Positions 1,784 to 22,872 of a stretch of DNA of 33,276 bases are shown here, one piece after another. Each line of letters starts with the position of its first letter. Positions within the stretch are counted from its first letter, which is position 1. The notes under the pieces are model-generated. The model worked only from the letters and a program-made list of their open reading frames with translations. It was not told the origin of the DNA and did no database searches. The stretch spans positions 1-33,276 of the forward strand of contig JAJDZM010000307.1 in the NCBI GenBank assembly GCA_022824615.1, written 5' to 3'. The translations under genes were made by a program, and so were the position numbers. This DNA comes from Candidatus Binatia bacterium. Its GTDB lineage: Bacteria > Desulfobacterota > Binatia > Bin18.

Positions 1784-2050
1784 ATGGATCAAGACCAGAC
1801 CAACACTGAGGAAACCGCTGTGGAATGCAATATCCACGTCAACGAGCAAGTTGTCACTCTCGTCAGCGGACCGTACAAGGCGACGGACATCAAGCGGAAA
1901 GCCATAGAACAAAACGTGTCTATCGAGATGGACTTTGTACTGAGCATTGAGGAGGAGCCGCGGAAGACCAGGGTCATTGACGACGAAGAGGTGATCGTTG
2001 TCGAGGCGGATATCTGTTTCATCGCGGTGCCTGACGATGACAACTCCTGA
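1784..2050 (+). CDS. Ubiquitin-like modifier protein (single multiubiquitin-type domain)
   Basis: An 88-aa protein, MDQDQTNTEETAVECNIHVN and onward. A short polar N-terminus (about 1-14) precedes one beta-grasp-like domain: strand IHVNEQVVTLVSGPYKATDI, a helix, then DFVLSIEE and a last strand EADICFIAV. The pattern V-N-x2-V-x-L...T-x2-D-I-K...F-x-L...V matches bacterial ubiquitin-like proteins of the multiubiquitin group, found in operons with E1, E2 and JAB proteins (Iyer, Burroughs and Aravind). The C-terminus is VPDDDNS, without the diglycine of ubiquitin, so processing or a different conjugation chemistry must be considered. An AGGAG site 8 bp upstream fixes the start at 1784. The next gene starts inside this one. 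The protein is probably the modifier of the operon. Assignment rests on fold pattern plus neighbours. Confidence 0.75.
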   Translation: MDQDQTNTEETAVECNIHVNEQVVTLVSGPYKATDIKRKAIEQNVSIEMDFVLSIEEEPRKTRVIDDEEVIVVEADICFIAVPDDDNS

Positions 2051-2444
2051 CGTTATCAATGTAAAGCCGGAGGTCGGCCAAGCGATACGGGACATCGCCG
2101 CCGCCTTCCCTGACGCAACGGTTAGTGCTGATGGGGATAGCGCTGGGGGAGCATACGTCTTCGTCAGGGACGTGCCGCTTGCCTCAATCTACCAGCAGCA
2201 CAAGACCTGGGTGGGTTTCCACATTACCTACATGTACCCGGAAGCCGACGTCTACCCGCACTTCGTGCGAGCAGACCTCTGTCGGGCGGACGGTGCTCCC
2301 CTTGGGGATGGTACGTCACCGGCCTCATTTCAAGGTCAAGCCGCGGTGCAGCTTTCACGGCGCTCCAACCGCCTGAATCCAGCGACTGACACCGCGCTGC
2401 TCAAACTACAGAAGGTACTCCGGTGGCTCAACAACCGTCCATGA
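2037..2444 (+). CDS. E2-like (UBC-related) protein of the ubiquitin-like operon
   Basis: A 135-aa protein whose ATG lies inside the end of the modifier gene (14-bp overlap) and whose stop overlaps the next start as ATGA. The centre (WVGFHITYMYPEADVYPHFV at 58-77) resembles the E2-fold signature of a strand followed by YP-x3-x-YP and a further strand. The C-terminal part has a conserved-looking QLSRRSNRLNPATDTALLKL segment. There is a single cysteine, C82 (RADLCRAD), in the region after the YP motif, so it is the only candidate for a thioester. The classical HPN tripeptide is absent. In bacterial ubiquitin-like operons, proteins of this size between modifier and E1 are E2-family members. I assign it mainly by context, and an adaptor without catalysis remains possible. 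Confidence 0.6.
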   Translation: MTTPDVINVKPEVGQAIRDIAAAFPDATVSADGDSAGGAYVFVRDVPLASIYQQHKTWVGFHITYMYPEADVYPHFVRADLCRADGAPLGDGTSPASFQGQAAVQLSRRSNRLNPATDTALLKLQKVLRWLNNRP

Positions 2445-3898
2445 ACAAGCCATGGCGCATCCTCATACCAGAAGGACTCTACGCCAAGCTCCATGCGCAC
2501 CTCTTCCCAGATGACAGAGACGAACACGGAGCTGTCATCCTTGCAGGCGTCGCTGAGACAGAACACGAAGTTCGAATCCTTGCGCGAGAACTACATCTGG
2601 CGACAGATGGCCGTGACTATGTGCCCGGCAAGCGCGGCTACCGTATGTTGAGGGCCGAGTTCATCAATGACAGGGTGTTGAAGGCCCGCGATGAGCGTTT
2701 GGTCTACCTTGCCATCCACAATCATGCTGGTACCAATGCAGTAGCCTTCTCTGGCGACGATCTCCACTCACACGAGCGGGGCTATCCGGCACTGCTACAG
2801 ATCGCCCGAGGTATGCCCGTCGGGGCGCTAGTTTTCGCAAAAGGTGCCATCGCTGGCGATATCTGGATATCGGATAGTTGCCGAGTACCACTTGTCGGGG
2901 CCACCATCGTCGGTCGCCGCCGACAACTTCTTACACCAAGGCCGTCCACTGACTCACTGCGAACCGACCCATGTTACGACCGTCAGGTGCGGCTATTTGG
3001 AGACCGTGGGCAAGATATTCTGACTAAGGCGAAGGTAGCCATTGTTGGACTTGGTGGAGTCGGCTCGCTGTTGGCCGAGATTCTCGCACGTCTAGGGGTA
3101 GGGCATTTTGTGCTCATTGACCCAGACCGCACGGAGTCGTCAAACTTGCCGCGATTGATCGGAGCGACACGATGGGACGTTGCTCCAAAGTTCTTGGAAG
3201 AAACCTCTTGGGGTTGGCTTCGTCCGATAGAGCGACTACTGTCACGGCGCAAAACTTCCCTCGCCCGACGCAATATCCGACGCGCTAATCGAGGCGCGCG
3301 GGTGCAGGCTTTTGCTACCGATATCGTTGAACCAGATGTAGTAGAACACCTGAAGGACTGCGATTACATCTTCTTGGCGGCAGACACCATGAGAGCACGA
3401 CGTATTTTCAACGCTATCGTCCATCAATACCTGATCCCCGGTGTTCAAATTGGTGCAAAAGTCAACAGTGACAAGACGGGCACTGTGGGTGATGTGTATG
3501 CTGTCACTCGTCCGGTCACGCCGGAATCGGGTTGTCTTTTATGCAGCCGGTTCATCAATCCGGCCAAGCTACAGGAAGAATTGTCGTCCGAGGAAGAGCG
3601 GCGCGTGCAACGATACGTGAACGATGAGGACGTCGTCGCGCCAAGTGTGATTACTCTCAATGCCCTTGCTAGTGCTCAAGCGGCTAACGACTTCCTCTTT
3701 TACATGACCGGGCTTACTAAGGAGAACGCTTCGCTCAGCTACATGTATTTTCGACCCCTGCACCGCGAAGTCTCGTGGGATCAACCGCCTGCTCGCAACG
3801 ACTGTCTTGATTGTGGTCGCTCTGAGCGCAGTCGCTTCGCAAGGGGTGGTGGAAAGAGTCTGCCTGTGAAATTACCGCGGCCTCGGTTTCATTCGTGA
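2441..3898 (+). CDS. JAB deubiquitinase-like / ThiF-E1 fusion protein
   Basis: A 485-aa two-domain protein. Residues 1-145 form a JAB/JAMM metalloprotease: E28, HNH at 93-95, S104 and D107 (AFSGDDLHSHERGYPAL), the pattern that binds zinc and hydrolyses isopeptide bonds in AMSH/Rpn11 relatives. Residues 180-460 form a ThiF/E1 adenylyltransferase: GLGGVG at 203-208 for ATP, D227, SSNLPR at 233-238 and D315. Two CxxC pairs (365/368 and 455/458) probably hold the usual structural zinc. No cysteine lies between 316 and 364, so no E1 active-site cysteine is evident. Start chosen at the ATG at 2441, which overlaps the previous stop as ATGA; a GTG at 2423 is in frame. The 3' end overlaps hsdS tail to tail by 10 bp. 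The protein would both activate the modifier and remove or mature it. Confidence 0.88.
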   Translation: MNKPWRILIPEGLYAKLHAHLFPDDRDEHGAVILAGVAETEHEVRILARELHLATDGRDYVPGKRGYRMLRAEFINDRVLKARDERLVYLAIHNHAGTNAVAFSGDDLHSHERGYPALLQIARGMPVGALVFAKGAIAGDIWISDSCRVPLVGATIVGRRRQLLTPRPSTDSLRTDPCYDRQVRLFGDRGQDILTKAKVAIVGLGGVGSLLAEILARLGVGHFVLIDPDRTESSNLPRLIGATRWDVAPKFLEETSWGWLRPIERLLSRRKTSLARRNIRRANRGARVQAFATDIVEPDVVEHLKDCDYIFLAADTMRARRIFNAIVHQYLIPGVQIGAKVNSDKTGTVGDVYAVTRPVTPESGCLLCSRFINPAKLQEELSSEEERRVQRYVNDEDVVAPSVITLNALASAQAANDFLFYMTGLTKENASLSYMYFRPLHREVSWDQPPARNDCLDCGRSERSRFARGGGKSLPVKLPRPRFHS

Positions 3899-5574
3899 TA
3901 AGCCTCCTGAGGTCCTGAGTTCAGTCGCGACACCTCTTCTCCATCTACGCCTAACACCCCGTGCAACACCGCCCCCACCAACCGCCCCCGCGTCTCCTCA
4001 CCCGCAGCAAGGCCCGCCTCCAGCCGGTCACACACCGCCATCAGTTCATCGACCTTAGCGACAATACGGCGCTGTTCGGCAAGTGGTGGGAGGGGAAATA
4101 AATACGACGCAAGCCCTTTGCCGGTGAAATGTTTGATACCAGTGCCAGTGAAATACTCGGCCAAACGCCCGTCATCGGCGCTCGCCCGAAGAGCCTTCAC
4201 GAAAAATTCACTATCTACGAAGTCCAAAAAACGGACGCGATGAATTGCTTTCTGAAAGTAGATGTCGGTCTCGCGGGCATCCCACACCGCCGCCCGGCCC
4301 GGCTCGCCCCCCTCGCATATCATTACATCGCCGAATCGGAGTGCGAACTCTGGAAGCTCCGAATCCTCAAACCGCATTTCCAGCAAGTCTGATAGATCGA
4401 AGTCGAACCATCTCACATTGATATTGCGGAGGTATTTGCGGGGTGTTCCTTTGTTCTTGGCCTTATCGAGCATCTTCCCGAGTCGAGCGTGAGCTACCGC
4501 GCTCACGTTTACCCACGCCCAAGATTCGGGGAGGTCGAATGGTCCTGCACTTGGAACTGCAATCTTTCGGTGTTTCAACAATTCTCCCGCTGGCTCGTCC
4601 TCCGGGTTCTGCTCCACCAGCTTCCCCCGTACCGCCAAGTTGAGAATGGTCTGGCGGAGAGCCTGAATCTGGTCTGGGCGGGTGGTAAGAGAGGTGAGGT
4701 CGTTGAAGGCAAAAGCCGCGTGGTTCTGAAAGACCGCCGGGTCGGGGTCAGGCGTGCTGAGGCGGGCAAGGCTTGCCGTTACCAGCCGGTCGCGCGTGGC
4801 TTCCTGCTCCTTCCACGCTGTTTCTAGCCGGTCACAGAGGGCCATCAATTCATCGACTTTGGCGACGATACGGTGTTGTTCGGCAAGGGGTGGAAGGGGA
4901 AAGGGAGCGACTACGGCATCGTCCGTCCTCAATCGCGGCATCTTCGTTCCCTGACCAAGTTGCGTCACGTAATGCACAAAGTCAGGCCGTCGCAAAGCCA
5001 GTGCGCAGTACTTGGAACAGAGAGGGATATAAGGACGGAGAGCCACGATTTCGGTCGTCGAATATCCGGGCTTATCCGCAACAAGGACCTTGTTGAGATA
5101 CGGTCGCAGCTTTCCGTAGAGAATGTCGTCAACTCGAAACTCTGACTTGGTGCTCTTTGATTCTCGTTCAGTAGCAGTAATCCGAGCAAGCAATCTCCCC
5201 GTGTCTCTCTCAATGTCTTCAAGTTCCAGCAGCCACAATTCCGAGTTTAGGGCTATAGGTTCTCGTTTGATGCCAGCATCGTATAAAAAGAGGTTGCCGA
5301 GCGCAGCCCACTGCCATGAATCTGGCAAATCAAAGGGTAGGTCCGCGACCTTGACCCACTCAGCTTTGCTTTTCTTGACCTCCCCCGCCTCCACCATCCG
5401 CCTTTTTTCCGCCGCAATCCGTTTCAACAACTCCGACGCCGGCTCGTCGTTCGGGTCCTGCTCTACCAGCTTCCCGCGTACCGCCAAGTCAAGAATAAAC
5501 CTGCGTAAACGCGGAACAGCGTCCGGCGCGTCGGTGAGGCGGTCGAAGTGGGTGAGCAGGTGTTCGGTGTTCAT
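3889..5574 (-). CDS. hsdS: Type I restriction-modification specificity subunit
   Basis: A 561-aa HsdS with the usual two-fold layout. A conserved spacer begins each half (LAVRGKLVEQDPNDEPASEL near residue 30 and LAVRGKLVEQNPEDEPAGEL near 315). Each target-recognition domain (about 85-245 and 330-500) ends in PLPPLAEQ(H/R)RIVAKVDELM plus a helical conserved region. The two recognition domains differ, as expected for a bipartite DNA target. It would direct the HsdM and HsdR proteins encoded upstream at 6463-10314. A HigBA toxin-antitoxin pair separates it from hsdM by about 0.9 kb, so it is either at the end of one long operon or separately expressed. Length is normal and no frame disruption is visible. 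Confidence 0.93.
   Translation of the reverse strand: MNTEHLLTHFDRLTDAPDAVPRLRRFILDLAVRGKLVEQDPNDEPASELLKRIAAEKRRMVEAGEVKKSKAEWVKVADLPFDLPDSWQWAALGNLFLYDAGIKREPIALNSELWLLELEDIERDTGRLLARITATERESKSTKSEFRVDDILYGKLRPYLNKVLVADKPGYSTTEIVALRPYIPLCSKYCALALRRPDFVHYVTQLGQGTKMPRLRTDDAVVAPFPLPPLAEQHRIVAKVDELMALCDRLETAWKEQEATRDRLVTASLARLSTPDPDPAVFQNHAAFAFNDLTSLTTRPDQIQALRQTILNLAVRGKLVEQNPEDEPAGELLKHRKIAVPSAGPFDLPESWAWVNVSAVAHARLGKMLDKAKNKGTPRKYLRNINVRWFDFDLSDLLEMRFEDSELPEFALRFGDVMICEGGEPGRAAVWDARETDIYFQKAIHRVRFLDFVDSEFFVKALRASADDGRLAEYFTGTGIKHFTGKGLASYLFPLPPLAEQRRIVAKVDELMAVCDRLEAGLAAGEETRGRLVGAVLHGVLGVDGEEVSRLNSGPQEAYHE
4023..4098 (-). repeat. Direct repeat copy A inside hsdS
   Basis: This 76-bp stretch matches 4827-4902 (offset 804 bp) with only scattered differences. 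It encodes the PPLAEQ-RIVAKVDELMAVCD region that ends the second half of HsdS. Such repeats are a natural substrate for recombination that exchanges target-recognition domains. Confidence 0.7.
4827..4902 (-). repeat. Direct repeat copy B inside hsdS
   Basis: Partner of the repeat at 4023-4098, encoding the conserved segment that ends the first half of HsdS. Same orientation, same length. Confidence 0.7.
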
Positions 5575-5593
5575 TGGAGAGGCGACGAGGAGG

Positions 5594-5914
5594 TCAGGCA
5601 GCCTTTGTTTCCGGGGGCTTGGTCGTCACGCTCAGTTTCAGCCCAAGACTCTTCAACACGGCCTCAAGCGTAGAAAAGCGAGGGTTGCCCTTGCGGGACA
5701 ATGTGCGGTACAAGCTCTCCCGACTCAAGTGCGTATCCTGAGCGAGTTGTTTCATGCCATGTGCCTTGGCGACATCACGCAGGGCTAACAGAAAGACCTC
5801 TGACCCCTGTGCGTATTCGTCATCCAGGGCCGCGTTCAGATACGCTACAGCCTCTTCGGGGTCTTGGAGGTCCTGATAGAGGAGGTCTTCGTATGGAATA
5901 GTGCGCCTTGCCAT
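5594..5914 (-). CDS. higA: HigA-like antitoxin (addiction module antidote, TIGR02684 type)
   Basis: A 106-aa protein starting MARRTIPYEDLLYQDLQDPE, with the order typical of this antidote family: an acidic DLQDPEEAVAYLNAALDD stretch, then VFLLALRDVAKAHGMKQLAQ, then the HTH (THLSRESLYRTLSRKGNPRF) and the closing STLEAVLKSLGL. It would bind and neutralise the toxin encoded just upstream and repress the pair. The toxin stop (5919-5921) is 4 bp before this ATG, and GGGAGA at the end of the toxin gene serves as ribosome site, so the two are co-translated. An in-frame upstream ATG at 5929 is less likely. The gene sits between hsdM and hsdS on the same strand. Confidence 0.88.
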   Translation of the reverse strand: MARRTIPYEDLLYQDLQDPEEAVAYLNAALDDEYAQGSEVFLLALRDVAKAHGMKQLAQDTHLSRESLYRTLSRKGNPRFSTLEAVLKSLGLKLSVTTKPPETKAA

Positions 5915-5918
5915 ATTC

Positions 5919-6251
5919 TCATCTCCCAATATAGTCAGCCCAATACTCTTGGGCCTTTCTGATATCCACCGCTTGGGTCCGTTTCGTTCCCCCGCACAAA
6001 AGGAGGATGAAACGTGCGCCGTCTTGTCCGATATACACCCGATAGCCTGGACCGATATCTACGCGGAGTTCCAACACCCCATGCCCGACGGATTTGTAAT
6101 CTCCGAGGTTGCCGAGGCGGAGTCGCGCTAGCCTGACACGGATGTGATTACGCGCTTTCCGATCTTTCAGCGTACGCAGCCATTCCGCGAATGGCGTGCT
6201 CCCGTCGTTCGCGACATACGCGACAACCTGTCGATATCGACTCTCAGGCAT
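5919..6251 (-). CDS. higB: HigB/RelE-like toxin (addiction module killer, TIGR02683 type)
   Basis: A 110-aa basic protein, with the pattern of TIGR02683 toxins: PFAEWLRTLKDRKARNHIRV near the N-terminus, then LARLRLGNLGDYKSVGHGVLE, ELRVDIGPGYRVYIGQDG and LLLCGGTKRTQAVDIRKAQE. Members have the RelE/HigB fold and cleave mRNA at the ribosome. The gene appears intact. It precedes its antitoxin, the usual order in this family. GGAGG lies 4-8 bp before the ATG, and a 6-bp inverted repeat lies just upstream. Position between hsdM and hsdS suggests that it acts as a retention element for the restriction operon, which is inference. Confidence 0.9.
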   Translation of the reverse strand: MPESRYRQVVAYVANDGSTPFAEWLRTLKDRKARNHIRVRLARLRLGNLGDYKSVGHGVLELRVDIGPGYRVYIGQDGARFILLLCGGTKRTQAVDIRKAQEYWADYIGR

Positions 6252-6258
6252 AGCCTCC

Positions 6259-6276
6259 AGTAGCGTATAGGCTACT
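6259..6276. promoter_or_regulatory. Inverted repeat upstream of higB, candidate HigA operator
   Basis: AGTAGC-GTATAG-GCTACT is a perfect 6-bp inverted repeat with a 6-bp centre, ending 8 bp before the higB start codon. Autoregulatory operators of toxin-antitoxin pairs are usually found in this position. A related string, GTAGCGTATA, lies at 694-703 upstream of the antitoxin-like pair. Confidence 0.45.
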
Positions 6277-6332
6277 TTTTGGCAATGCTTTGGGAGTGTA
6301 ACCGACCCTTAGCCTCAATCTATAGCTATATC

Positions 6333-6371
6333 GTTCTGCTCTCGTCATGCCGGACGTGATCCGGCATCCAG
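6333..6371. repeat. Dispersed palindromic repeat, copy 1
   Basis: This 39-bp sequence recurs in inverted orientation at 16801-16839 with two differences. Its core ATGCCGGA-CGTGA-TCCGGCAT is an 8-bp inverted repeat. It lies in the gap between hsdM and higB. REP-like intergenic elements look like this. The following 40 bp (CTTCGACTTCGC...GCTCAGGACGAAC) look like a second common intergenic repeat type. Confidence 0.75.
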
Positions 6372-6462
6372 TCCTTCGACTTCGCTTTGCTACGCTCAGG
6401 ACGAACGGGGGGTCGCTACATAGCATTGTTATTTGCTCTAGGGAGAGCTATCCCCTACGCAC

Positions 6463-7917
6463 CTAACGCAGCAGCGCTTCCGCCAATATCGCCTTCAACT
6501 GGTCCCGCAAGTCCGAGACCTCAGCCTCGATTGCGCTGAGCTTGGCCAGCAGCTCTTGCGGGTCGCCCAAGTCGTCTGCCTGGGGGTGGGGGTTCTTGAT
6601 GTCCAGATTGTAGCCGCACGCCTTGACCTCTTCGGCGGTCACCTTCCAGGCGCGTTCCGTTTCTGTGCGGCCCGTGCGGTCCGTTCCGCCCCACCAGTCC
6701 ATGCAGTCTTGTAGATGTTCCAGCCGAATCGGCCTGGTCATGGAATAGGCTTTTTGGCCCTCGGGTACGCAGTGTTCGTAGAACCAGATATCCATGGTTG
6801 GCGCGCCCTTCTCGAAGAACAGCAGATTGGTGCCGATGGAGGCGTATGGCCGGAACACGGAATTGGGCAGGCGCACGATGGTGTGCAGGTTGCATTCTTC
6901 CATCAGGTGTTCCTTGAGTCGGGTCTTGACGCCCTCACCAAACAGCGAGCCGTCGGGCAGGACCACGGCGGCGCGTCCGCCCGGCTTCAGCAGGCGGATA
7001 ATAAGGGCCAGGAACAGGTCTGCCGTTTCCTTGGTCCGAAACTCTTTCGGGAAGTTGGCTTCAATGCCGTCTTCCTCCCTGCCACCAAAGGGCGGGTTGG
7101 TCAGGACAATATCCACCCGGTGCTTTTGCTCCCAGCTAATATAGGGTCGCGCCAGGGTGTTGTCGTGGCGCACAAAGCTCGGGTCTTCAACGCTATGCAG
7201 CAGCATATTGGTCACGCACAGCATGTGAGGGAGCTGTTTCTTCTCCACGGCCCGCAGTCCGGCCTGTATGGTCGGTTCATCCTCGGGTCGCTTAACATAG
7301 CGCTCGCGCATGTGGCGCAGCGCACAGGTCAGAAATCCTCCGGTGCCGCAGGCCGGGTCGAAAACGGTCTCGTCCGGCTTCGGGTCGGTCCGATCAACCA
7401 TAAAGGCGGTTACGGCGCGGGGCGTATAATACTCGCCGGCATTGCCCGCGGATTGCAGGTCGTTGAGAATCTGCTCGTAGATGTCGCCGAAATGCTGACG
7501 CTCGGTCAGGTCATTGAAGTCAATATCGTTGATCTTGTTGACTACCTGACGCACCAACTGGCCGGACTTCATGTAGTTGTAGGCATCCTCAAAAACATCG
7601 CGCACAACGCGGCCACGGGCTCCTGCCTGGTCAATTTCCAGGTTCTTCAGCGACGGGAACAAGTCGGCGTTGAGAAAGTTCAACAGTTCCTCACCGGTCA
7701 TGCCCTCGGGGTCGGCCGCCCAGGTCCGCCATCGGAACCGCTCGGGTATCGGAAACGTGTAGTCGTCTCCCATCACCTCCACTTCCCGGTCCTTATCGTC
7801 AATAATCTTGAGAAAAAACATCCAGCACAACTGACTGATGCGCTGGGCGTCGCCGTCTACGCCCGTGTCCTTGCGCATGATGTCCTGAATGGATTTAACC
7901 AGAGTGCGGACGGACAT
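6463..7917 (-). CDS. hsdM: Type I restriction-modification DNA methyltransferase subunit
   Basis: A 484-aa N6-adenine methyltransferase. An N-terminal HsdM helical domain (1-150) is followed by the SAM-binding motif DPACGTGGF at 187-195 and the catalytic motif NPPFGG at 274-279. A coiled C-terminal helix (about 455-484, EAEVSDLRDQLKAILAEALL) probably packs against HsdS. It modifies the host's recognition sites and, with HsdS and HsdR, forms the restriction complex. The start lies 3 bp after the hsdR stop, so the two are co-transcribed. Length and motifs are normal, with no disruption. Confidence 0.95.
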   Translation of the reverse strand: MSVRTLVKSIQDIMRKDTGVDGDAQRISQLCWMFFLKIIDDKDREVEVMGDDYTFPIPERFRWRTWAADPEGMTGEELLNFLNADLFPSLKNLEIDQAGARGRVVRDVFEDAYNYMKSGQLVRQVVNKINDIDFNDLTERQHFGDIYEQILNDLQSAGNAGEYYTPRAVTAFMVDRTDPKPDETVFDPACGTGGFLTCALRHMRERYVKRPEDEPTIQAGLRAVEKKQLPHMLCVTNMLLHSVEDPSFVRHDNTLARPYISWEQKHRVDIVLTNPPFGGREEDGIEANFPKEFRTKETADLFLALIIRLLKPGGRAAVVLPDGSLFGEGVKTRLKEHLMEECNLHTIVRLPNSVFRPYASIGTNLLFFEKGAPTMDIWFYEHCVPEGQKAYSMTRPIRLEHLQDCMDWWGGTDRTGRTETERAWKVTAEEVKACGYNLDIKNPHPQADDLGDPQELLAKLSAIEAEVSDLRDQLKAILAEALLR

Positions 7918-7920
7918 GGT

Positions 7921-10314
7921 CTACGCGGTCTCCTGATACAATGCGGCTTGCAGGTCGTGGACGGCCTGGACGAATCCTCCCTTGCCGCCAAAGGCCCTGA
8001 CCAACTGCACCGGGGTGCCCAGGTCGCTCAAGGGCGGGATGCGCAGCACGTTGGTATCGTCCAGATTCAGCACACCCTCGTCGGCGTATTTGGCCAGCAG
8101 CGCATCGAGCACGGCGCGGGCTTGGTCTCCGTACTTGGCGAACACATCGCGCTTCTTGACGTTTTCGGCGCGCTCGCGCCGGGTCAGCGGCTTGGCGTCA
8201 AAGGCCACATGACAAATCAGGTCAAAAGGGTCGAGATCCTTGCCCAGTTCCTCGACAATCGTGTCGAGCGCCAGCCCCTCGGCCTCCAACTCCTCAAGAA
8301 TGGCCTGCTTGCGTTCGGCCGCCTTCCAGCGGCGGAGAAAATCATCCAGGCTGGCAAAGCGCCGTTTCAGCGCCTTTCGGGTAAAGTCACGCAAGGACTC
8401 GGTGACCAGCTTGCCGTATTGGTCCAGATACTCAACCCGCTCGGCAACGATGCTGACGCTCACATTGTCCACATACACCTTGCGCGGTTTCTCCGGTGGA
8501 GGCCCTGGAGGAGGATCACCAATGATTGTTTCCTCTTCTTCATCGGGCGGCGCGATGGGGTCGTCCTCGCCGGGCTCGTATATCTGCACGGGCTCGCCGT
8601 CAAAGTCCGGGTCGGCAAAATGGCTGGTCGCGCCCCGGAAATCCATCAGGCTAAAGTAGAACTTGCGCGTGTCTTCGTGCACGCGGGTGCCGCGGCCGAC
8701 AATCTGCTTGAACTCGGTCATGGAGCCCACCTCGCGGTCAAGCGCGATGAGCCGACAGGTCTGGACATCCACCCCGGTCGAGAGCAGGCGCGAGGTCGTG
8801 ACCAAAACCGGGTATGTGGATTCCGGGTCAATGAAGTTGTCCAGTTGGGCCTGCCCCTCATTATCGCCACCAGTGATACGTATGACGTAACGGTGATTCT
8901 CGGCCACCAGGTCGGCGTTCTCGTTGATGAGGGCCTGGCGCATCCGGGCCGCGTGCTCCCGGTCAACGCAGAAGACCATCGTTTTCTGGAAGCGATCGCC
9001 GCTTTCCTTCAGAAATTGGGTGATCTTGCGGGCCACCAGCTTGGTCCGTTCGTCCAATACCAGATTGCGGTCAAAATCTTTAGTGTTGTAGAGGCGATCC
9101 TCGACCTCGTGCCCGTCCCGGTCCAACTGGCCGGGTTCGGGTCGGTAGCCCTCCACATCGCGGTCGATATGCACCTTAATGACTTTATAGGGGGCCAGAA
9201 ATCCGTCGTGGATACCCTGTTTGAGCGAGTAGGTATAGACCGGCTCGCCGAAGTATTCGATGTTGGACACGTAGGCCGTTTCCTTGGGTGTGGCCGTCAG
9301 ACCGATATGGGTGGCGGACGAGAAATAGTCCAGGATTTCCCGCCAGGCCGAATCCTCGGCCGCGCTGCCGCGGTGGCATTCGTCGATCACAATCAGGTCG
9401 AAGAAACCGGGCGAAAGCTCACGAAAGACTTTCTGACGGTCCTCCGGCCCGGTCAGGGCTTGATACAGACCCAGATAGATTTCATACGAGGTGTCAATCC
9501 GCCGCTTGCGGTCAATCGCGGCGCTCAGGTCCTCGGAGGAGCCGTCCGCGCGTTCGATGGTCCCGGCCCTGGGTGACAGCTTGGCCATGGCCGGACCGAA
9601 AGGCCGGAAGTCGTTGACCATGGTCTGGTCAACCAGGACGTTGCGGTCGGCCAGAAACAGGATGCGCTTCTTGCGGCCGGCCTTCCACAGCCGCCAGATA
9701 ATCTGAAAGGCGGTGTAGGTCTTACCCGTTCCGGTGGCCATGACCAGCAGGAGACGTTCGCGGCCCTTGGCAATAGCCTCGATGGCGGCGTTGATGGCGT
9801 TGAGCTGATAGTAGCGCGGGGTCTTCCCGCTGCCATCGCTGAAATAATCCTGCGTGACAACATTCTCAGTCTCGGGTTTTAGATCCTTCCAGGCACGATA
9901 GCGCGCCCACAGCTCGGACGGCGCGGGAAAGGTGTTCAGGCTGAGGTTGGTTTCCCGTTCAGGACTCAGACCGGTCCGGTCGTGGAACACAAAGCCCTCG
10001 CCATTGGAGGAAAACACAAAGGGGGTATGCAACGCCTCGGCATAGCCTAGGGACTGCTGCATGCCGTCGCCCACCGCGTGGGTGTTGTCCTTGGCTTCAA
10101 TCACCGCAATGGGGAGATTGGGCTTGTGGTACAGGACGTAATCGGCCCGCCTTCCCTCACCCCGGCTGACCAGCTTGCCGCGTACGATGATACGGCCCTT
10201 GGTGAAGCTGACCTCGCGGCGAATCTGCGTCGCCTCGTCCCAGCCGGCTTGGTATAGGGCTGGATTGATATACTTGGTGCAAACATCGCTTTCGCTGAGA
10301 CGTGTCTTTTGCAT
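7921..10314 (-). CDS. hsdR: Type I restriction endonuclease subunit (SF2 helicase-nuclease)
   Basis: A 797-aa HsdR. The N-terminal nuclease has D58 and EAK (73-75) of a PD-(D/E)XK site. The helicase motor has Walker A ATGTGKT (193-199), DECH (311-314), GLTATP (338-343) and a later VGRGTRVH motif VI. A proline- and acid-rich linker (about 595-640, with DDPIAPPDEEEE and PPPGPPPEKP) leads to the C-terminal domain (about 650-780) that joins the complex. It translocates DNA and cuts unmodified molecules. It is the first gene of the operon and reads directly into hsdM. It is intact. A very long open frame exists on the opposite strand, but its translation has no family resemblance. Confidence 0.95.
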   Translation of the reverse strand: MQKTRLSESDVCTKYINPALYQAGWDEATQIRREVSFTKGRIIVRGKLVSRGEGRRADYVLYHKPNLPIAVIEAKDNTHAVGDGMQQSLGYAEALHTPFVFSSNGEGFVFHDRTGLSPERETNLSLNTFPAPSELWARYRAWKDLKPETENVVTQDYFSDGSGKTPRYYQLNAINAAIEAIAKGRERLLLVMATGTGKTYTAFQIIWRLWKAGRKKRILFLADRNVLVDQTMVNDFRPFGPAMAKLSPRAGTIERADGSSEDLSAAIDRKRRIDTSYEIYLGLYQALTGPEDRQKVFRELSPGFFDLIVIDECHRGSAAEDSAWREILDYFSSATHIGLTATPKETAYVSNIEYFGEPVYTYSLKQGIHDGFLAPYKVIKVHIDRDVEGYRPEPGQLDRDGHEVEDRLYNTKDFDRNLVLDERTKLVARKITQFLKESGDRFQKTMVFCVDREHAARMRQALINENADLVAENHRYVIRITGGDNEGQAQLDNFIDPESTYPVLVTTSRLLSTGVDVQTCRLIALDREVGSMTEFKQIVGRGTRVHEDTRKFYFSLMDFRGATSHFADPDFDGEPVQIYEPGEDDPIAPPDEEEETIIGDPPPGPPPEKPRKVYVDNVSVSIVAERVEYLDQYGKLVTESLRDFTRKALKRRFASLDDFLRRWKAAERKQAILEELEAEGLALDTIVEELGKDLDPFDLICHVAFDAKPLTRRERAENVKKRDVFAKYGDQARAVLDALLAKYADEGVLNLDDTNVLRIPPLSDLGTPVQLVRAFGGKGGFVQAVHDLQAALYQETA

Positions 10315-12485: not shown

Positions 12486-13124
12486 ATGGCTGATATACAG
12501 GATTGGACCCTTCAGGGCGACTGGTTCGATGTGTGCAGTTGCGATATCGCCTGTCCGTGTGAATTTGCCCAGCCCCCTACAAACAATCACTGCGAGGGCG
12601 TCTTGGCCTACCATGTCCGAGAAGGGCTGTACGGCTCAACCCGTCTCGATGGGCTGAATGTCCTTGCCGTGGCCAGCTTTAGCGGTAATGTCTGGGCCGG
12701 TGAGGCCAAAATCTCACTGGGGCTGTTTATTGACGAACAGGCAGATACGCAACAGCGTGAGGCACTTCAACTCATCTTTTCCGGGCAGGCCGGCGGATTC
12801 ATGGCCGGGTTTGCGCGCTCGATTGGTGAGGTGCGCGGGATTGAGTTTGTGCCAATCACCTTTGATATTGCCGACGACTTGGCCTTTTGGAAAGCGGAGA
12901 TTCCCGATCGCGTCACGGCCTCTGCCGAGGCGCTGACCGGACCGACCACCCCGAAAGGGAAACGGGTGCAGTTGCTGAATCCGCCCGGTTCCGAAGTGGG
13001 GCCCGGCCAGGTCGCGACCTGGGGCAAAACGGTTGACAATCGGGTCAACGCCTACGGTCTTGAGTGGGATTGGGCCGGGAAATCGAGCAAACACATCCCT
13101 TTTGACTGGAGTGGACCCGCATAG
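12486..13124 (+). CDS. DUF1326-domain protein
   Basis: A 212-aa protein starting MADIQDWTLQGDWFDVCSCD. The N-terminal cysteine cluster C17, C19, C23, C25 and C36 (CSCDIACPCEF...HC) is the hallmark of the DUF1326 family. It suggests metal or redox chemistry, but the function is not established. The ATG at 12486 has GAGGAGG upstream, overlapping the end of the dehydrogenase gene. The two genes are therefore coupled and could act on one substrate. The rest of the protein is a mixed alpha/beta domain without motifs that I recognise. Confidence 0.85.
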   Translation: MADIQDWTLQGDWFDVCSCDIACPCEFAQPPTNNHCEGVLAYHVREGLYGSTRLDGLNVLAVASFSGNVWAGEAKISLGLFIDEQADTQQREALQLIFSGQAGGFMAGFARSIGEVRGIEFVPITFDIADDLAFWKAEIPDRVTASAEALTGPTTPKGKRVQLLNPPGSEVGPGQVATWGKTVDNRVNAYGLEWDWAGKSSKHIPFDWSGPA

Positions 13125-13176
13125 CCCGGCCCCTGGCGCTGCTCAGGAACTGCAAAAAATAAGACTAAAACCGAAA

Positions 13177-13222
13177 TGGCGGGAGAAGACTCATGCAAGG
13201 GGCTCATGAGCTTCCCCCGCCA
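13177..13222. repeat. Long imperfect hairpin between DUF1326 and the secreted protein
   Basis: TGGCGGGAGAAGACTCATG (13177-13195) pairs with CATGAGCTTCCCCCGCCA (13205-13222), with one mismatch and one bulge and a 9-nt loop. There is no T tract on either side, so it is not a standard intrinsic terminator, although it lies between two convergent genes. A purine-rich tract (13224-13250) follows. It may be a bidirectional transcript end or a REP-like element. The rest of the 173-bp gap shows nothing else. Confidence 0.55.
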
Positions 13223-13297
13223 CTGGAAGGAGGAAGAAAGAAGGAAAGCTATTGGTCAGACGGGGCAACACCCGTCAGTATTCAACCTGTCCGCCAA

Positions 13298-13993
13298 TTA
13301 TTCGGATAAATATTCAACTTTCTCCAGAAAAGCCTTGGCCCCCCCGGACGTCCCTCTGGTATTCATCTGAAAGCCGAATCGGCTAATCGGGGGCACAACC
13401 GTCTGACCAAACTGCGTACGGAAGGCCTGGTCCAAATCAAATTCCGTCACCACCCGCTCGCCCACCGGTACCCCGCAGGGAGTACAGAAATAGCGTCCGC
13501 CGGTTTTATAGTAATTCCCCGTATACGCCTGATTTGCCTGCTCTTTTTCCCCTAAGAAGAGGCCGATAAAATACGGGGCATTGGGGACGAAGAGCGATCC
13601 GCTCTTTATCTTTTTTGTCCCAAACGTGGTCATCACCGCAATAGGAACCGCAGTAATCCCCTGGCTCCAATCCGCCCCGTGCGGATAGCGTTCGACTCCC
13701 CAATGAATACGAATCCGCTTGACCGGGGACACATGCAGGGGCAACTCGAACAGGCCGGCCTTTCGTCGGGCAGTATGTAAGACGAGTCGATTATTTTTGA
13801 AGTGCGGCTGTAAATCGTCTGCGTCCAGACGAAAGGTAAATCCCTGCTGCTTCAACCATTCCTCCGCCGGACCATCCGGATGGCCAGAGAAATCAATTGT
13901 ATGCAGCGGGGCCGCCGTTGCCCCAGGAGTGCCCAACCACAGCAGACACACGCTCAGAATGCTGAAAAGAAGAAACGTGTCCTCCAACAGCAT
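13298..13993 (-). CDS. Secreted protein of unknown function
   Basis: A 231-aa protein starting at the ATG at 13991-13993. The hydrophobic stretch FLLFSILSVCLLWLGTPGAT followed by AAP is a probable Sec signal peptide with cleavage near TAA. The mature part reads like a compact beta-rich domain (HTIDFSGHPDGPAEEWLKQQ; RIRIHWGVERYPHGADWSQG; PYFIGLFLGEKEQANQAYTG) and has one CTPC pair. It ends FLEKVEYLS. This recalls periplasmic proteins with a carbohydrate-binding-like layout, such as DUF3047, but I cannot assign it. A longer frame extends upstream to 14062 but adds no sensible N-terminus. Neighbours give no clue. Confidence 0.6.
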   Translation of the reverse strand: MLLEDTFLLFSILSVCLLWLGTPGATAAPLHTIDFSGHPDGPAEEWLKQQGFTFRLDADDLQPHFKNNRLVLHTARRKAGLFELPLHVSPVKRIRIHWGVERYPHGADWSQGITAVPIAVMTTFGTKKIKSGSLFVPNAPYFIGLFLGEKEQANQAYTGNYYKTGGRYFCTPCGVPVGERVVTEFDLDQAFRTQFGQTVVPPISRFGFQMNTRGTSGGAKAFLEKVEYLSE

Positions 13994-14158
13994 GTAGATG
14001 CCGGACGCGTTTATTCTTCGAGTCCACACCACACCGTAACGACGAAGGCTCCGTGTCTGCATAATTCCCCATGCGCGGTCGAGCCGTCTATTTTGCTGAC
14101 GAGCGGAGCCGAGTGCAAGGTCGCCCTCCAGACCGGTCTTCCGCCTCTCTTTTCGAGC

Positions 14159-14187
14159 TTGACGCTGTTCGCATTCCGGCCGAAAAT
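14159..14187 (+). promoter_or_regulatory. Candidate promoter of the LLM-family gene
   Basis: TTGACG (14159-14164), a 17-bp spacer and GAAAAT (14182-14187) lie 59 bp before the start codon. The -10 match is weak. The preceding part of the 252-bp gap shows no other structure. Confidence 0.3.
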
Positions 14188-14245
14188 GGCTCGCGGCGTA
14201 TCACAAAAACCCCCATCCCACGTGTCAATAGAGAGGAGAACACAT

Positions 14246-15238
14246 ATGGCTCAAATCGGGCTCGCTTTGGCCGGTGGCATGTCGCCCACCGATGTTGTTG
14301 ACTGTGTCAAATATGCAGAAGAACAGGGCTATACCTCAGCCTGGTTTGCGGAAGGGCATGGCGGAGACCAGTTCTCTATTCTGACCGCCTGTGCTCTCGC
14401 AACTCAGCGCATCCAGCTCGGCACGAGTATCAGCAGTATTTTCGTCCGCAGCGCACCGACCATTGCCATGGCGGCCGCGTGTGTCGATCATTATTCTCAG
14501 CAGCGCTTTATTTTGGGGCTCGGCTCCAGCCATAAGGTTCAGGTCGAGCCGGAACACGGCATCCCGTATGGTCAGCCGGTCCAGCGCATGCGGGAAACGG
14601 TCGAGATTATCCGCACGCTGCTACGCGAGGGAGCGGTGTCCTATCAGGGTGAGGTGGTGACCATTGAGCAGTTTGATCTCTGGTTTCAGCCCGCCCGCCC
14701 GGAGCTGCCGATCTATATTTCAGCCGTTTTTCCGCAGATGCTCCAAGCCTGTGGTGAACTCGCCCAGGGGACCATTCTGGTATGGAGTGCCCCGGAGGCG
14801 GGTAAGCTGGCCGCTGAAAATATCGCGATTGGTGCGCGCCGAGCCGGACGCCAAGCCGAAGAAGTTGACATTGTCTCGCTCCTGCCGATGAGTGTAGCCC
14901 AGGATCATCAAGAAGCTCTGGCGCGCCTTCGGCCCCTGGTCGCTTTCTACGCCGGATTCTTTCCGCGCTATAATCGCGTCATGGCCGAGCAGGGATTTCC
15001 CGAGGAAGCACAAGCCATTCGAGCGGCATGGCAGCAGGGGGACCGGCAAAAGGCGGTCCAGCTTGTTCCTGACCCCTTGATTGAAACGGTCAGTGTCGTG
15101 GGGACACCGGCCAAATGCCGGGAGCGGGTCGAAGCCTATCGCGACTCCGGCATCGTGCATCCGGTTATTTTTCCAGTGAGCGACGGCCCAAGCGGGAAAC
15201 AGCACGTTCTGGATGCCGTCCGGGCTTGTGCGCCCTAA
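14246..15238 (+). CDS. LLM-class flavin-dependent oxidoreductase
   Basis: A 330-aa luciferase-like TIM-barrel protein. Typical segments are the N-terminal strand MAQIGLALAGGMSPTDVVDC, then EEQGYTSAWFAEGHGGDQFS, LATQRIQLGTSIS, HYSQQRFILGLGSS and the C-terminal SVVGTPAKCRERVEAYRDSG. F420- or FMN-dependent members (N10-methylene-H4MPT reductase-like and dehydrogenase-like) share this pattern, so the cofactor could be F420 or FMN. The start is fixed by GAGAGGAGAA 5 bp upstream of the ATG. It is convergent with the methyltransferase gene, 21 bp apart. The substrate is unknown. A second family member is at 28840-29850. Confidence 0.9.
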   Translation: MAQIGLALAGGMSPTDVVDCVKYAEEQGYTSAWFAEGHGGDQFSILTACALATQRIQLGTSISSIFVRSAPTIAMAAACVDHYSQQRFILGLGSSHKVQVEPEHGIPYGQPVQRMRETVEIIRTLLREGAVSYQGEVVTIEQFDLWFQPARPELPIYISAVFPQMLQACGELAQGTILVWSAPEAGKLAAENIAIGARRAGRQAEEVDIVSLLPMSVAQDHQEALARLRPLVAFYAGFFPRYNRVMAEQGFPEEAQAIRAAWQQGDRQKAVQLVPDPLIETVSVVGTPAKCRERVEAYRDSGIVHPVIFPVSDGPSGKQHVLDAVRACAP

Positions 15239-15259: not shown

Positions 15260-16393
15260 TCATCCCTTGTCAATCAGAAACAGAAATTCACGGTTCGGGC
15301 GTTCTGCATCGCGTAGCCATTCGTTCGTCCACTTCATTCCCGCCATAACATTGCGCTTGTAGTCCACCTCGACAATATCAACGACTTCGCCCTTGACAGA
15401 TAAAATGTGGTGTAATTCGTCTGCCGTTGCCCGGCCGCCCGAACTGTAAGAGAGGATAACCCACCGCGCCGCCGTTGATTGTATTAGTCGTTCAATTGCC
15501 TCAACTGCAATGAATCGGCCCGTGCTGGGGTTCCTTTTGAATTCCTCAAACACCGACCCCGAAAGAGTATCAGACGTGTCTCTTCTTCTCTTTGCCTTAC
15601 CGAATAATTCCGGGAAGTCATTGAGACAGATAGTCGTCCAGAGATGATAATAGGACGCATACCGAACACGCGACGGAGGCATCTTTTCGTTATTTGACCC
15701 ATAGGGAGGATCGAAATAGGCAAGATCAACATCGTAATTGGCGATGTCAAATATATTGCCCCGGTGAACATCGTGCTCGCACTCGTAAGAAACCAAATCC
15801 GGCACTTCAAGATATAAATCGTTGAACGATCTTGGAGACCACTTTTGGAGATAGGAGACAAAATGACCAAGCGTACTATCCACACGGTCTAACCCTAGAA
15901 TGAGGCTCGTCAGCGCCACTGCCCTCTCAATTGGGGACAAAGAAAGACGGTCAATTTCTTGACGAATCCCGTCCAATTTTCGCGTATTATGAATCTGCCA
16001 CGGTCTTTTTAGGCCGTCACTCTGAACAGAACTGCCGGTATTTGGCTTGCCGCCATAGTGCTCGGTAAACCAGCCGTCTCTTGGCTGAACCTTGTTCAGG
16101 CTGCGAATCAGTGTCGAATAGCTTTCTTTTGGCCGGTCGCTGAGTAAATAGCATTGACCGAAAATCTCTGACCATACCGCAATATCATTACTGACAACTC
16201 GATACCCTGACTGGGCGAATGCCTGGGATACCCGCGTTGATCCTGAGAAGCCATCAAGGACACTCTTCGCATCAGTTCGACGTGCCAAATCGAGAATGTA
16301 TGGGAGTAACTTCAGCTTTGAACCGGCATATTTTATGCCCTCCGTGGTTGGTCTATCGACTACGATGTCACTGAACAGCGATAAATTGTTCAT
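15260..16393 (-). CDS. DNA adenine methyltransferase (D12 class)
   Basis: A 377-aa enzyme with the D12-class order of motifs: KYAGSKLKLLPYI (21-33), DGFSGSTRVSQAFA (47-60) for SAM binding, and the catalytic DPPYGS at 228-233. The C-terminal part has the conserved aromatic elements of adenine methylases (WVILSYSSGGRATADEL; NREFLFLID). It methylates N6 of adenine within an unknown site. Its start overlaps the stop of an upstream ORF as ATGA. That ORF looks like the tail of a type II restriction enzyme, so this is probably the methylase of a decayed restriction-modification pair. The enzyme itself appears intact. The region is lower in GC than its neighbours, in keeping with transfer. Confidence 0.88.
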   Translation of the reverse strand: MNNLSLFSDIVVDRPTTEGIKYAGSKLKLLPYILDLARRTDAKSVLDGFSGSTRVSQAFAQSGYRVVSNDIAVWSEIFGQCYLLSDRPKESYSTLIRSLNKVQPRDGWFTEHYGGKPNTGSSVQSDGLKRPWQIHNTRKLDGIRQEIDRLSLSPIERAVALTSLILGLDRVDSTLGHFVSYLQKWSPRSFNDLYLEVPDLVSYECEHDVHRGNIFDIANYDVDLAYFDPPYGSNNEKMPPSRVRYASYYHLWTTICLNDFPELFGKAKRRRDTSDTLSGSVFEEFKRNPSTGRFIAVEAIERLIQSTAARWVILSYSSGGRATADELHHILSVKGEVVDIVEVDYKRNVMAGMKWTNEWLRDAERPNREFLFLIDKG

Positions 16394-20516: not shown

Positions 20517-22799
20517 CTATGGCCCGTTCTTCTCCAGCATCGCCTTTACTACTTTGGCTGGGGACATGGGCAGCTCGGTCATCCGCACCCCGGTTGCCCG
20601 GTAAATGGCATTGGCAATCGCGGCGGGTGGCGGGACGATCGGCACCTCGCCAACGCCACGAATGCCGATGGGATGGCCGGGATTGGCCACTTCGACCAGG
20701 ATGGTTTCGATCATGGGCAGGTCGAGACAGGTGGGCATGCGATAATCCAGAAAGCCGGTATTCCGCATGGTCCCATCCTCAGCGTAAAAATACTCTTCGT
20801 TGAGCGCCCAGCCGACCCCTTGGGCCACGCCGCCCTGAATCTGCCCCTCGACATAGCTGGGATGGACGGCTTTGCCGACATCCTGGGCGGCCGTGTAGCG
20901 GAGAATATCGACTTTCCCGGTCTCGGGATCGACTTCCACATCAACCACGTGCGCGGCAAAGGCGGGCCCTACCCCGCGTGGCCGGACAGACGCGCGACCC
21001 ATAACCGGACCACCGGCACGGGGAAACTTGGGAGCGATTTCCTTCAAGCTCAGGGATTCGTGGCCATTAGTCAGACAGGAGAGCACCCCGTCCTGGTAGG
21101 TGACGTCTTCCGGCTTGACCTTCCAGACCATGGCGGCCCGCTGCTTCAGTTGTCCGACAGCGTCTTGGGCCGCTTCATACACGGCCAGACCAGTGGCGAA
21201 GGTCACCCGACTGCCGCCGGTCGTATCGGTATGGCCAATGGATTCCGTGTCTGCGACAACCGGGTGCATGTCTTCCGCCCTGAGTCCCAGGACCTCGGCC
21301 GCAATCATGGCGCACGAGGCCCGGCTGCCGCCGATATCGGGTGAGCCGGTCACCACATTGGCGCTGCCATCGGTGTTAATGCTCACCGTGGCGCTCGACT
21401 GAAACGCGGCATTAAACCAAAAGCCAGTGGCAACTCCCCGCCCGCGGAGTTTTCCGTTTTCACTCCGGGGCGGTGGCGACTGATAGTGCTCGCTGTTGTG
21501 AATGGCCTCAACCGTTTCGAGATAACCGATCCGTTTGAATTGAGGCCCGGCGGGTTGGGCCGTTCCTTCTTTGGCGCCGTTGAGACGGCGTATTTCGAGC
21601 GGATCGAGACCAAGCTTTTCCGCCATCTCGTCAAGAATCGTTTCAGCCGCCAGAGCGGGGTTGGTGGCACCGGGAGCGCGGTAAGCGCACGTCTTGGGCT
21701 TGTTTAGCACAACATCGTAGCCGTCGATCTGAAAATTTTCCAAGTCGTACGGAGCCAGAACGGTCATACAGCCAGCCGCTACCGGTGAACCGGGAAAGGC
21801 GCCCGCTTCAAACGAGAGTTGGAGTTCGGCTGCCGTGATTTTGCCCTCAAGGTTGACGCCGATCTTGGCGCGGATATGCGACCCTGGCGTCGGGCCGGTT
21901 GCGCGCAGCACCTCGCTCCGAGACATGACCATTTTCACGGGTCGGCCGGTGAGTTTGGACAGGAGCAGGGCCACCGGTTCCAAATACACCGTGGTCTTGC
22001 CGCCAAAGCCACCCCCGATCTCAGCCGGCACGACTTTGATATCCCCGCGGTTTATTTGCAGCATGGTGCCGCACAACTCGCGCACGGCAAATGGCCCCTG
22101 AGTGCTGACCCAGACCGTCGCCTTACCGTCCTGGTTATACTGCGCTACCGCGTTATGGGGCTCGATATAGCCCTGATGGACCATGGTGGTTGCAAACTCG
22201 CGGTCAATCACGATCTCGGCAGCGGCAAACCCGGCAGCGAGATTGCCCCGCGAGAACTGAATATGGTTCGCAATATTGGTTTCTGTGTCATCCCCTGCAT
22301 CGACTCCGGCTGTCCGCAGGTCCGGGTGTAGAATAACTGCGTCGTCCCGCATGGCTTCGAGCACGTTCTGGACAAAGGGCAGCGGTTCGTATTCTACTCT
22401 GATGAGCTTGAGCGCCTCCTCGGCAACGTGGGGGCTGGTCGCCGCAACGGCCGCGACCGCATGACCGTCGTACAGAACTTTGTCGCGGGCCATAATGTTC
22501 GCAGCCAGGTGACGCGGGTTGACAAAGTTCTCGCCGATTTGCAGCATCCCCGGTTCAATCTCAGGAAAGTCGGTACCGGTAATGACCGCTTTGACGCCTG
22601 GCAGGGCTTGCGCCTCGGAAGTCTCGATGGATTTGATCCGCGCGTGGGGGTGTGGACTGCGCAGCACTTTCCCGTGCAAGAGACCCGGCAGGGTAATATC
22701 CGCTCCATAGCGGGCGCGTCCCGTAACTTTATCAACCCCGTCGTGCCGAATGGGACGGGTGCCAATCACCTTGAACTGATGCTCGTGTTGCGATCCCAT
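20517..22799 (-). CDS. Molybdenum hydroxylase large subunit, copy 1 (xanthine dehydrogenase family)
   Basis: A 760-aa molybdopterin-binding subunit. It begins MGSQHEHQFKVIGTRPIRHD. Cofactor-contacting stretches are QGYIEPHNAVAQYN, PAEIGGGFGGKTTVYLEPVA, AYRAPGATNPALAAE and near the end GIRGVGEVPIVPPPAAIANA, whose glutamate is the expected catalytic base. AYRAPGA is of the xanthine/aldehyde dehydrogenase type, not the cysteine loop of CO dehydrogenase. The closest sequence in the window is the second copy at 23220-25490, very similar along its length. GGGAGGTGG precedes ATG 22799. A terminator-like hairpin precedes the gene, so it may be expressed at a different level from copy 2. Substrate unknown. 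Confidence 0.92.
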   Translation of the reverse strand: MGSQHEHQFKVIGTRPIRHDGVDKVTGRARYGADITLPGLLHGKVLRSPHPHARIKSIETSEAQALPGVKAVITGTDFPEIEPGMLQIGENFVNPRHLAANIMARDKVLYDGHAVAAVAATSPHVAEEALKLIRVEYEPLPFVQNVLEAMRDDAVILHPDLRTAGVDAGDDTETNIANHIQFSRGNLAAGFAAAEIVIDREFATTMVHQGYIEPHNAVAQYNQDGKATVWVSTQGPFAVRELCGTMLQINRGDIKVVPAEIGGGFGGKTTVYLEPVALLLSKLTGRPVKMVMSRSEVLRATGPTPGSHIRAKIGVNLEGKITAAELQLSFEAGAFPGSPVAAGCMTVLAPYDLENFQIDGYDVVLNKPKTCAYRAPGATNPALAAETILDEMAEKLGLDPLEIRRLNGAKEGTAQPAGPQFKRIGYLETVEAIHNSEHYQSPPPRSENGKLRGRGVATGFWFNAAFQSSATVSINTDGSANVVTGSPDIGGSRASCAMIAAEVLGLRAEDMHPVVADTESIGHTDTTGGSRVTFATGLAVYEAAQDAVGQLKQRAAMVWKVKPEDVTYQDGVLSCLTNGHESLSLKEIAPKFPRAGGPVMGRASVRPRGVGPAFAAHVVDVEVDPETGKVDILRYTAAQDVGKAVHPSYVEGQIQGGVAQGVGWALNEEYFYAEDGTMRNTGFLDYRMPTCLDLPMIETILVEVANPGHPIGIRGVGEVPIVPPPAAIANAIYRATGVRMTELPMSPAKVVKAMLEKNGP

Positions 22800-22816
22800 A
22801 TCCACCTCCCGTACAC

Positions 22817-22850
22817 AAAAACGGGGAAGAGCTGACCGCCCTTCCCCGTT
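22817..22850 (-). terminator. Intrinsic-terminator-like hairpin upstream of large subunit copy 1
   Basis: On the minus strand AACGGGGAAG (complement of 22841-22850) and CTTCCCCGTT (complement of 22820-22829) form a perfect 10-bp GC-rich stem with an 11-nt loop. It is followed by further Ts, making a run of five. It sits between the ThiS/MoaD-like gene and the large subunit gene of the same operon, so it would act as an internal attenuator. Confidence 0.6.
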
Positions 22851-22872
22851 CAAGAGTTATCGTAATAGCGGT

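Follow-up and report, generated by a model that had tools for sequence, protein, structure and literature searches.

Bacterial operons of the Bil (bacterial ISG15-like) kind encode a ubiquitin-like modifier, a conjugating enzyme (E2), an activating enzyme (E1) and a JAB protease together, with the JAB protease as a protein of its own and with a catalytic cysteine in the E2. The JAB protease is also separate in type II CBASS (cyclic-oligonucleotide-based antiphage signalling systems), in which Cap2 is an E2 fused to an E1. In the operon type designated 6e, the fifth one in the relevant section of the survey by Iyer et al. in 2006 (PMC1779556), JAB is mostly fused to the N-terminus of E1, an E2/RWD-like domain lacks the cysteine, and there are one to three ubiquitin (Ub)-like domains. 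Parts of two later papers concern the genes beside such operons: 70% of PF14452 proteins are encoded next to pairs that include a COG2856/DUF955 protein (PMC4963859), and CapW or CapH with CapP adjoin 219 of 544 Bub (bacterial ubiquitination-like) operons, CapP being a protease that cuts the repressor CapH (PMC13373217). Here, we describe a three-gene operon at positions 1784–3898 of a 33,276-nucleotide stretch of DNA from Candidatus Binatia bacterium (contig JAJDZM010000307.1 of assembly GCA_022824615.1), referred to below, at its full length, as the window. The operon belongs to the Bub/type 6e (multiubiquitin) group and is of a known kind, not a new system. With a probability of roughly 0.8, it encodes a one-domain Ub-like modifier, an E2-like protein in whose family no cysteine is conserved, and a JAB-E1 fusion; together, these are predicted to conjugate the modifier to targets and are likely switched by DNA damage through an adjoining XRE–metallopeptidase pair.

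The three open reading frames (ORFs) of the operon are uninterrupted and lie on the plus strand. The first of them (1784–2050) encodes the BubA-like modifier of 88 residues, a Ub-like protein with one predicted β-grasp domain and the C-terminus -DDNS. The second (2037–2444) encodes the BubB-like E2-like protein of 135 residues, whose family has no conserved cysteine and a near-invariant Ser107-Arg108. The third, which starts at GTG 2423 or ATG 2441 and ends at 3898, encodes the BubCD-like fusion, with JAB at the N-terminus and E1 at the C-terminus. The modifier and E2-like genes overlap by 14 bp (2037–2050), and the E2-like and fusion genes by 4 bp with the ATG start or by 22 bp with the GTG start. 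The GTG start appears to be the likelier one because the resulting N-terminus, MAQQPSMNKPWR, resembles the N-termini of the relatives P0002, P0003, P0006 and P0011, and because AGAAGG lies 7 nt upstream of it; the annotation of relative P0004 from the position equivalent to the ATG is a point against it. An initial annotation of this DNA had described three genes overlapping by 14 and 4 bp and had derived stoichiometric co-translation from that, as well as an activating enzyme and a protease in one polypeptide. The location, the strand and the 14-bp overlap proved right, as did the single polypeptide, in which profiles and the match to BubCD place JAB N-terminal to E1. The 4-bp overlap holds only with the start at ATG 2441, and the overlaps by themselves do not imply stoichiometric co-translation. 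The source genome (4.98 Mb, 89.6% complete) contains one full copy of the fusion; two further matches in it are short ones that extend over no more than part of the nucleotide-binding region.

Relatives were collected in one scan of one-genome-per-species contigs, and the best 80 of 97 candidate stretches were used as loci, with titles that include Proteobacteria, Actinobacteria, Cyanobacteria, Chloroflexi, Acidobacteria and others. The order modifier–E2–fusion on the same strand was found in 73 of the 80 loci, in addition to the window, and therefore the arrangement is not a matter of chance. Five of the remaining loci are cut by a contig end (L020, L023, L029, L043 and L061) and two are exceptions: in L019 the flank is present with no match to the modifier or E2, and in L082 the fusion is partial. 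The E2 gene of L031 and the modifier gene of L078 are each split across two ORFs. An E2-like gene or a fragment of it was detected in 77 of the 80 loci. Short ORFs (two fusions, five E2s and one modifier) are excluded from the conservation counts. No conserved fourth gene was recognized in a by-eye check of the longest downstream plus-strand ORF of at least 60 residues per locus, in which the ORFs were not scanned against families; only an XRE homolog recurred, in four loci.

The best solved relative of the fusion is Citrobacter BubCD (PDB 9ea4, E = 3.7e-22), aligned over residues 6–419 as numbered from the ATG. The fusion also matched ThiF (E = 2.3e-35) and, below the cut-off of that family, Prok-JAB (E = 0.0027). 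Among 79 fusions, the JAB residues E28, H93, H95, S104 and D107 are at least 97% conserved, and the E1 cysteines 365, 368, 455 and 458 are invariant (79/79). The residue at C307 is cysteine in 71 of these fusions, and one more column is cysteine in 47 and alanine in the window. The four invariant cysteines are probably zinc ligands, as they are arranged in two CxxC pairs. Such pairs also look like the zinc site of MoeB, and the E1 half matches ThiF/MoeB models, below the NCBIfam cut-offs, as if the operon were a sulfur-carrier or cofactor cluster in which a MoaD/ThiS-like protein, ThiF/MoeB and JAB move sulfur and do not tag proteins. This is very unlikely given that nearly all loci have the E2-like gene (77/80, fragments included), that the modifier has no GG end, that no biosynthetic gene was recognized among the direct neighbours, and that BubCD, BubB and multi-ubiquitin proteins rank best among the solved relatives.

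The protein encoded between the modifier and the fusion has a BubB-like predicted fold and belongs to a family without the E2 cysteine. Citrobacter BubB was the sole Foldseek match of its model at E ≤ 0.001; the match to the Prok-E2_E family fell below its cut-off, and a single-sequence search of the PDB gave no significant match. In the set of 73 E2 sequences, S107 and R108 are at least 97% conserved, and the column of the single cysteine of the window's protein is cysteine in 5 of 72 sequences. In the model, S107 follows the strand 101–106 and precedes the helix 120–132, which is about the location of the E2 cysteine in classical enzymes. One might think here of a newly fused relative of Bil or type II CBASS, as the parts list is alike and the E1 half is hit by the PADLOC 'E1-E2' models (best E = 5e-16). 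However, the best-matching stretches lie mostly around residues 190–250, as compared with 6–419 in the BubCD alignment, no cysteine is conserved in the E2 family, and E2 is encoded by a separate gene, unlike in Cap2, in which it is fused to E1. We thus regard such a relationship as extremely improbable.

The AlphaFold2 model of the modifier (mean predicted local distance difference test score 81.3) folds as a β-grasp, and its best fold matches, by a small lead, are bacterial multi-ubiquitin proteins. The Multi_ubiq domain was found in 65 of the 73 aligned members of the modifier family, the window's protein not being among them. A single-sequence search of the PDB gave no significant match, and a profile from 10 sequences gave none at E ≤ 10; a profile from 73 sequences matched 9cd2 at 0.0017, alongside an unrelated plant protein at 0.0037. 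The C-terminus is -DDNS in 66 of 74 modifiers, the window's included. The others end with -HEDS (two), -DDHS (two), -DENS, -EDDS or -DDNA, and the reading of L075 continues past -DDNS. The alignment A4 comprises 65 of the 73 modifier-bearing loci, without L018, L021, L041, L044, L073, L075, L077 and L078; among the loci outside it, L018 and L021 (-HEDS) and L078 (-DDNA) are without -DDNS, and L075 is the one whose reading overruns it.

Upstream of the operon, two genes are encoded on the minus strand. The gene at 1333–1671 encodes an XRE/helix-turn-helix (HTH) protein (HTH_3, E = 2.3e-4, below its cut-off), a putative repressor which resembles CapH by position. The gene at 765–1328 encodes an ImmA/IrrE-type metallopeptidase (Peptidase_M78, E = 7.6e-16), a predicted CapP-like sensor protease. 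Its H98-E99-x-x-H102 and E125 are invariant in 22 aligned sequences, which come from 22 of the 25 loci with the XRE and ImmA arrangement. The best PDB match of the ImmA profile was CapP (7t5t, E = 5.6e-14), with IrrE proteins close behind from 8.4e-13; single-sequence PDB searches with the XRE and ImmA proteins gave no significant match. When counted by domain position in 81 loci (the 80 and the window), a divergent XRE homolog is present in 53, the window included, 25 of which have ImmA on the same strand. No ImmA was detected at the other 28 (L006 among them), and therefore a different signal would be needed to lift repression there. The rest of the 81 loci have a plus-strand ImmA protein only (8), a minus-strand ImmA only (1), a downstream XRE (4), neither of the two (9), or no usable upstream sequence (6). 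In L018 and L021, plus-strand proteins of about 1120 residues with an ImmA-like match are encoded at about 3431–6796, upstream of the operon, in place of XRE and ImmA. The adjacency of such pairs to multiubiquitin or Bub operons has already been published (PMC4963859, PMC13373217).

The divergent region of the window contains an operator-like inverted repeat without strand, CAGTTGCT-TCAT-AGCAACTG (1735–1754), which has perfect 8-bp arms and ends 29 bp before the start of the modifier gene. Its core, TTGC-N6-GCAA, lies at 1738–1751. The initial annotation missed this palindrome and the XRE–metallopeptidase pair, both of which lie outside the region it covered. We counted all palindromes with 4-bp arms and spacers of 0–14 in 49 of the 53 divergent intergenic regions (four longer than 500 bp were omitted), with 100 dinucleotide shuffles as a control. 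The core occurs in 25 of the 49 regions and ranks first both in those with ImmA (8/22) and in those without it (17/27), as compared with at most 3 and 4 regions, respectively, reached by the top palindrome in the shuffled sets. With 5-bp arms, ATTGC-N6-GCAAT ranked first in the regions without ImmA (14/27) and TTCGA-N4-TCGAA in those with ImmA (4/22). After the removal of BLASTN-similar regions, the core remained in 16 of 30 regions, 7 of 16 with ImmA and 9 of 14 without it. Moreover, 31 core sites fall in the 9027 bp inside the 49 regions and 12 in the 700,711 bp outside, which is an approximately 200-fold enrichment over the rest of the loci. In the 400 bp that precede the modifier gene, none of the 8 loci with the plus-strand ImmA protein has the core, nor does L024; it does occur in 3 of the 4 loci whose XRE lies downstream and in 2 of the 9 that lack both XRE and ImmA. 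This distribution indicates that the palindrome tends to accompany the XRE type. As judged from these sequence patterns, the XRE protein may bind the palindrome as a repressor.

According to the Synechocystis paper of 2016 (PMC4963859), which names the DUF955 protein a toxin and HTH-Xre an antitoxin and proposes that they stabilize the cassette, XRE and ImmA would be an independent toxin–antitoxin pair. We consider this unlikely for the loci described here: at 28 of the 53 loci with a divergent XRE there is no detected ImmA, the palindrome lies in the intergenic region common to the operon and XRE, and CapP is described as cutting the repressor CapH (PMC13373217).

The surroundings of the operon are defence-like. 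In the window, a type I restriction specificity gene (3889–5574) is convergent with the operon and overlaps it by 10 bp; HsdM and HsdR are encoded beyond it, with antitoxin-like and toxin-like genes in between. We compared PADLOC matches (E ≤ 1e-15) of 95 of the 166 ORFs flanking nine loci with those of 111 of the 197 ORFs in nine control regions of the same genomes. The contrast was strong, with 169 families matched in the flanks and 1 in the controls, although the 169 count neither distinct proteins nor systems; there is redundancy among the models, many of them GajB, and ImmA proteins and another E1-like protein are among the flanking ORFs. In the flanks of these nine loci, the restriction-type Pfam domains HSDR_N and ResIII were found in two each. 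Proteins homologous to the window's HsdM were found in 4 of the 80 loci (1.10 Mb in total) as compared with ~0.4 expected from 45 N6_Mtase matches in 19 of these genomes (~113 Mb), a rough comparison because the two detection methods are not the same and the density includes no genome for 61 loci. Among 72,556 plasmid records, 89 carry at least 80% of the fusion; of the 25 plasmid matches listed, 8 have at least 42% identity and most others 25–30%. None of 50,697 phage records covers at least 80% of the fusion, and 6 match it partially.

The initial annotation had suggested anti-phage use and had named two outcomes that would speak against its reading of the operon as a whole: small proteins that are not β-grasp and E2-like, or homologous loci never found in defence contexts. 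Neither occurred, as the model of the 88-residue protein is a β-grasp that matches bacterial multi-ubiquitin proteins, the model of the 135-residue protein is E2-like and matches Citrobacter BubB, and the relatives are found among defence genes. A putative anti-phage or stress role is plausible for the operon. The same chemistry and DNA-damage switch could instead serve general stress-response tagging, with repair or growth control as the benefit. Bub is not known to protect against phages, and the authors of the 2026 study allow for a wider stress role (PMC13373217). The defence-like neighbourhoods (169 families against 1) and the occurrence of relatives on plasmids argue in the other direction, and we find a stress-related role in place of defence less likely than not.

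If the operon acts as a Bub-type conjugation system, as we favour, its function may be pictured as follows. The XRE protein would bind TTGC-N6-GCAA in the divergent promoter region, in which the genes and the palindrome are observed, and repress transcription in both directions. Single-stranded DNA (ssDNA) resulting from DNA damage or from invading DNA would activate the ImmA/CapP-like protease, leading to cleavage of the repressor. The E1 half would then adenylate the C-terminus of the modifier (-DDNS) and pass the modifier to the E2-like protein. The best candidate for the intermediate would be a Ser107 oxyester, given that cysteine is not conserved in the E2 family. Ye et al. in 2026 reportedly described an oxyester mechanism for Bub. 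Finally, the modifier would be joined to target proteins, and the JAB half, whose metal-site residues are conserved, could trim or remove it.

More tentatively, and with more doubt than confidence, one could see here a separate Bub lineage, with a lone β-grasp modifier bearing an unprocessed conserved -DDNS, a zinc-bound E1 without a catalytic cysteine, a Ser107 oxyester on a cysteine-less E2, and an ssDNA-activated protease that clears the repressor from a TTGC-N6-GCAA operator. In that case, the single-domain modifier would act without the filaments solved for the multi-ubiquitin relatives.

Other features were observed in the window and in one of the related loci. Between hsdS and hsdM, minus-strand genes at 5594–6251 encode an HI1420-type addiction-module antidote and a Gp49-like (below the cut-off) RelE-type toxin-like protein. 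A 953-residue plus-strand ORF (6715–9576) antisense to hsdM and hsdR is probably spurious in this GC-rich DNA. At the left edge, the minus strand carries overlapping small ORFs (122–654), one with HTH_37, as in antitoxins, and the other without a Pfam match. A gene for a D12-class adenine DNA methyltransferase (15260–16393, minus strand) is separate from the restriction cluster. Two adjacent, similar minus-strand genes (20517–22853 and 23220–25490) resemble molybdenum-hydroxylase large subunits and are followed by small-subunit, flavin adenine dinucleotide (FAD)-subunit, MobA-like and XdhC-like genes, all named by reading of the sequence. In the Bradyrhizobium macuxiense locus (L010), a second, distant E1-like protein of 575 residues (12652–14379, minus strand; E = 2e-6 to the fusion profile) is encoded ~3 kb from the Bub operon.

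Bub parts have publicly available structures, and Bub operons may serve either anti-phage defence or a wider stress response (PMC13373217). Our analysis brings out Ser107-Arg108, the four E1 cysteines, the -DDNS tail, the XRE and ImmA/CapP-like pair, the palindrome and the defence-model contrast. A compact family with three genes and a predicted one-domain modifier would serve as a simple model, in which Ser107-Arg108 and the -DDNS tail, conserved in most members, are targets for point mutations, and the operator-like palindrome offers a directly testable connection from DNA damage to protein tagging.

Among the known systems, Bil shares the modifier, E2, E1 and JAB parts with the operon and differs in its separate JAB and catalytic E2 cysteine, as compared with a fused JAB and no conserved cysteine here. 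The E2–E1 fusion and separate JAB of Cap2/Cap3 in type II CBASS are not found either, as E2 has its own gene and JAB is fused. Membership in Bil or CBASS was thus rejected by the fusion pattern and the lack of a conserved E2 cysteine. The Synechocystis pSYSX multiubiquitin cassette has the adjoining XRE and COG2856/DUF955 pair in common with the window, even though that pair was read as a stabilizing toxin–antitoxin (PMC4963859) and ours as a repressor and a protease. With CapH and CapP control (PMC13373217), the locus shares HTH and ImmA/IrrE-type protease genes beside an immune-type operon, and CapP is the best match of the ImmA profile; however, the likeness of XRE to CapH is one of position, and in 28 of 53 relatives no protease was detected alongside XRE. 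Type 6e, as characterized in the relevant section of PMC1779556, has the Ub-like modifier, the cysteine-less E2-like domain, judged there as likely catalytically inactive, and JAB N-terminal to E1 in common with the window operon. It has an extra metal-binding protein, none of which was recognized downstream of the window operon in the by-eye ORF check. The initial annotation had presented the single-polypeptide JAB-E1 as a departure from known relatives. This novelty had to be rejected because Iyer et al. described the fusion, the prevailing form in 6e, in 2006 (PMC1779556) and because it has been solved in Citrobacter BubCD, which has the same make-up. The identity to the Citrobacter proteins is low, one β-grasp domain is predicted here in contrast to the BubA piece in the title of 9ea8, which comprises residues 155–229, and the first of the two CxxC pairs invariant in the window's E1 family is absent from BubCD in the alignment. 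Nevertheless, Citrobacter BubA, BubB and BubCD (PDB 9ea4, 9eae, 9eav and 9ea8) have the JAB-E1 fusion, the separate small E2-like protein, the multi-ubiquitin-type modifier and the JAB metal-site residues in common with the operon, and the best matches to BubCD, BubB and multi-ubiquitin proteins bear out both the parts list of the initial annotation and its guess of a multiubiquitin-type cluster.
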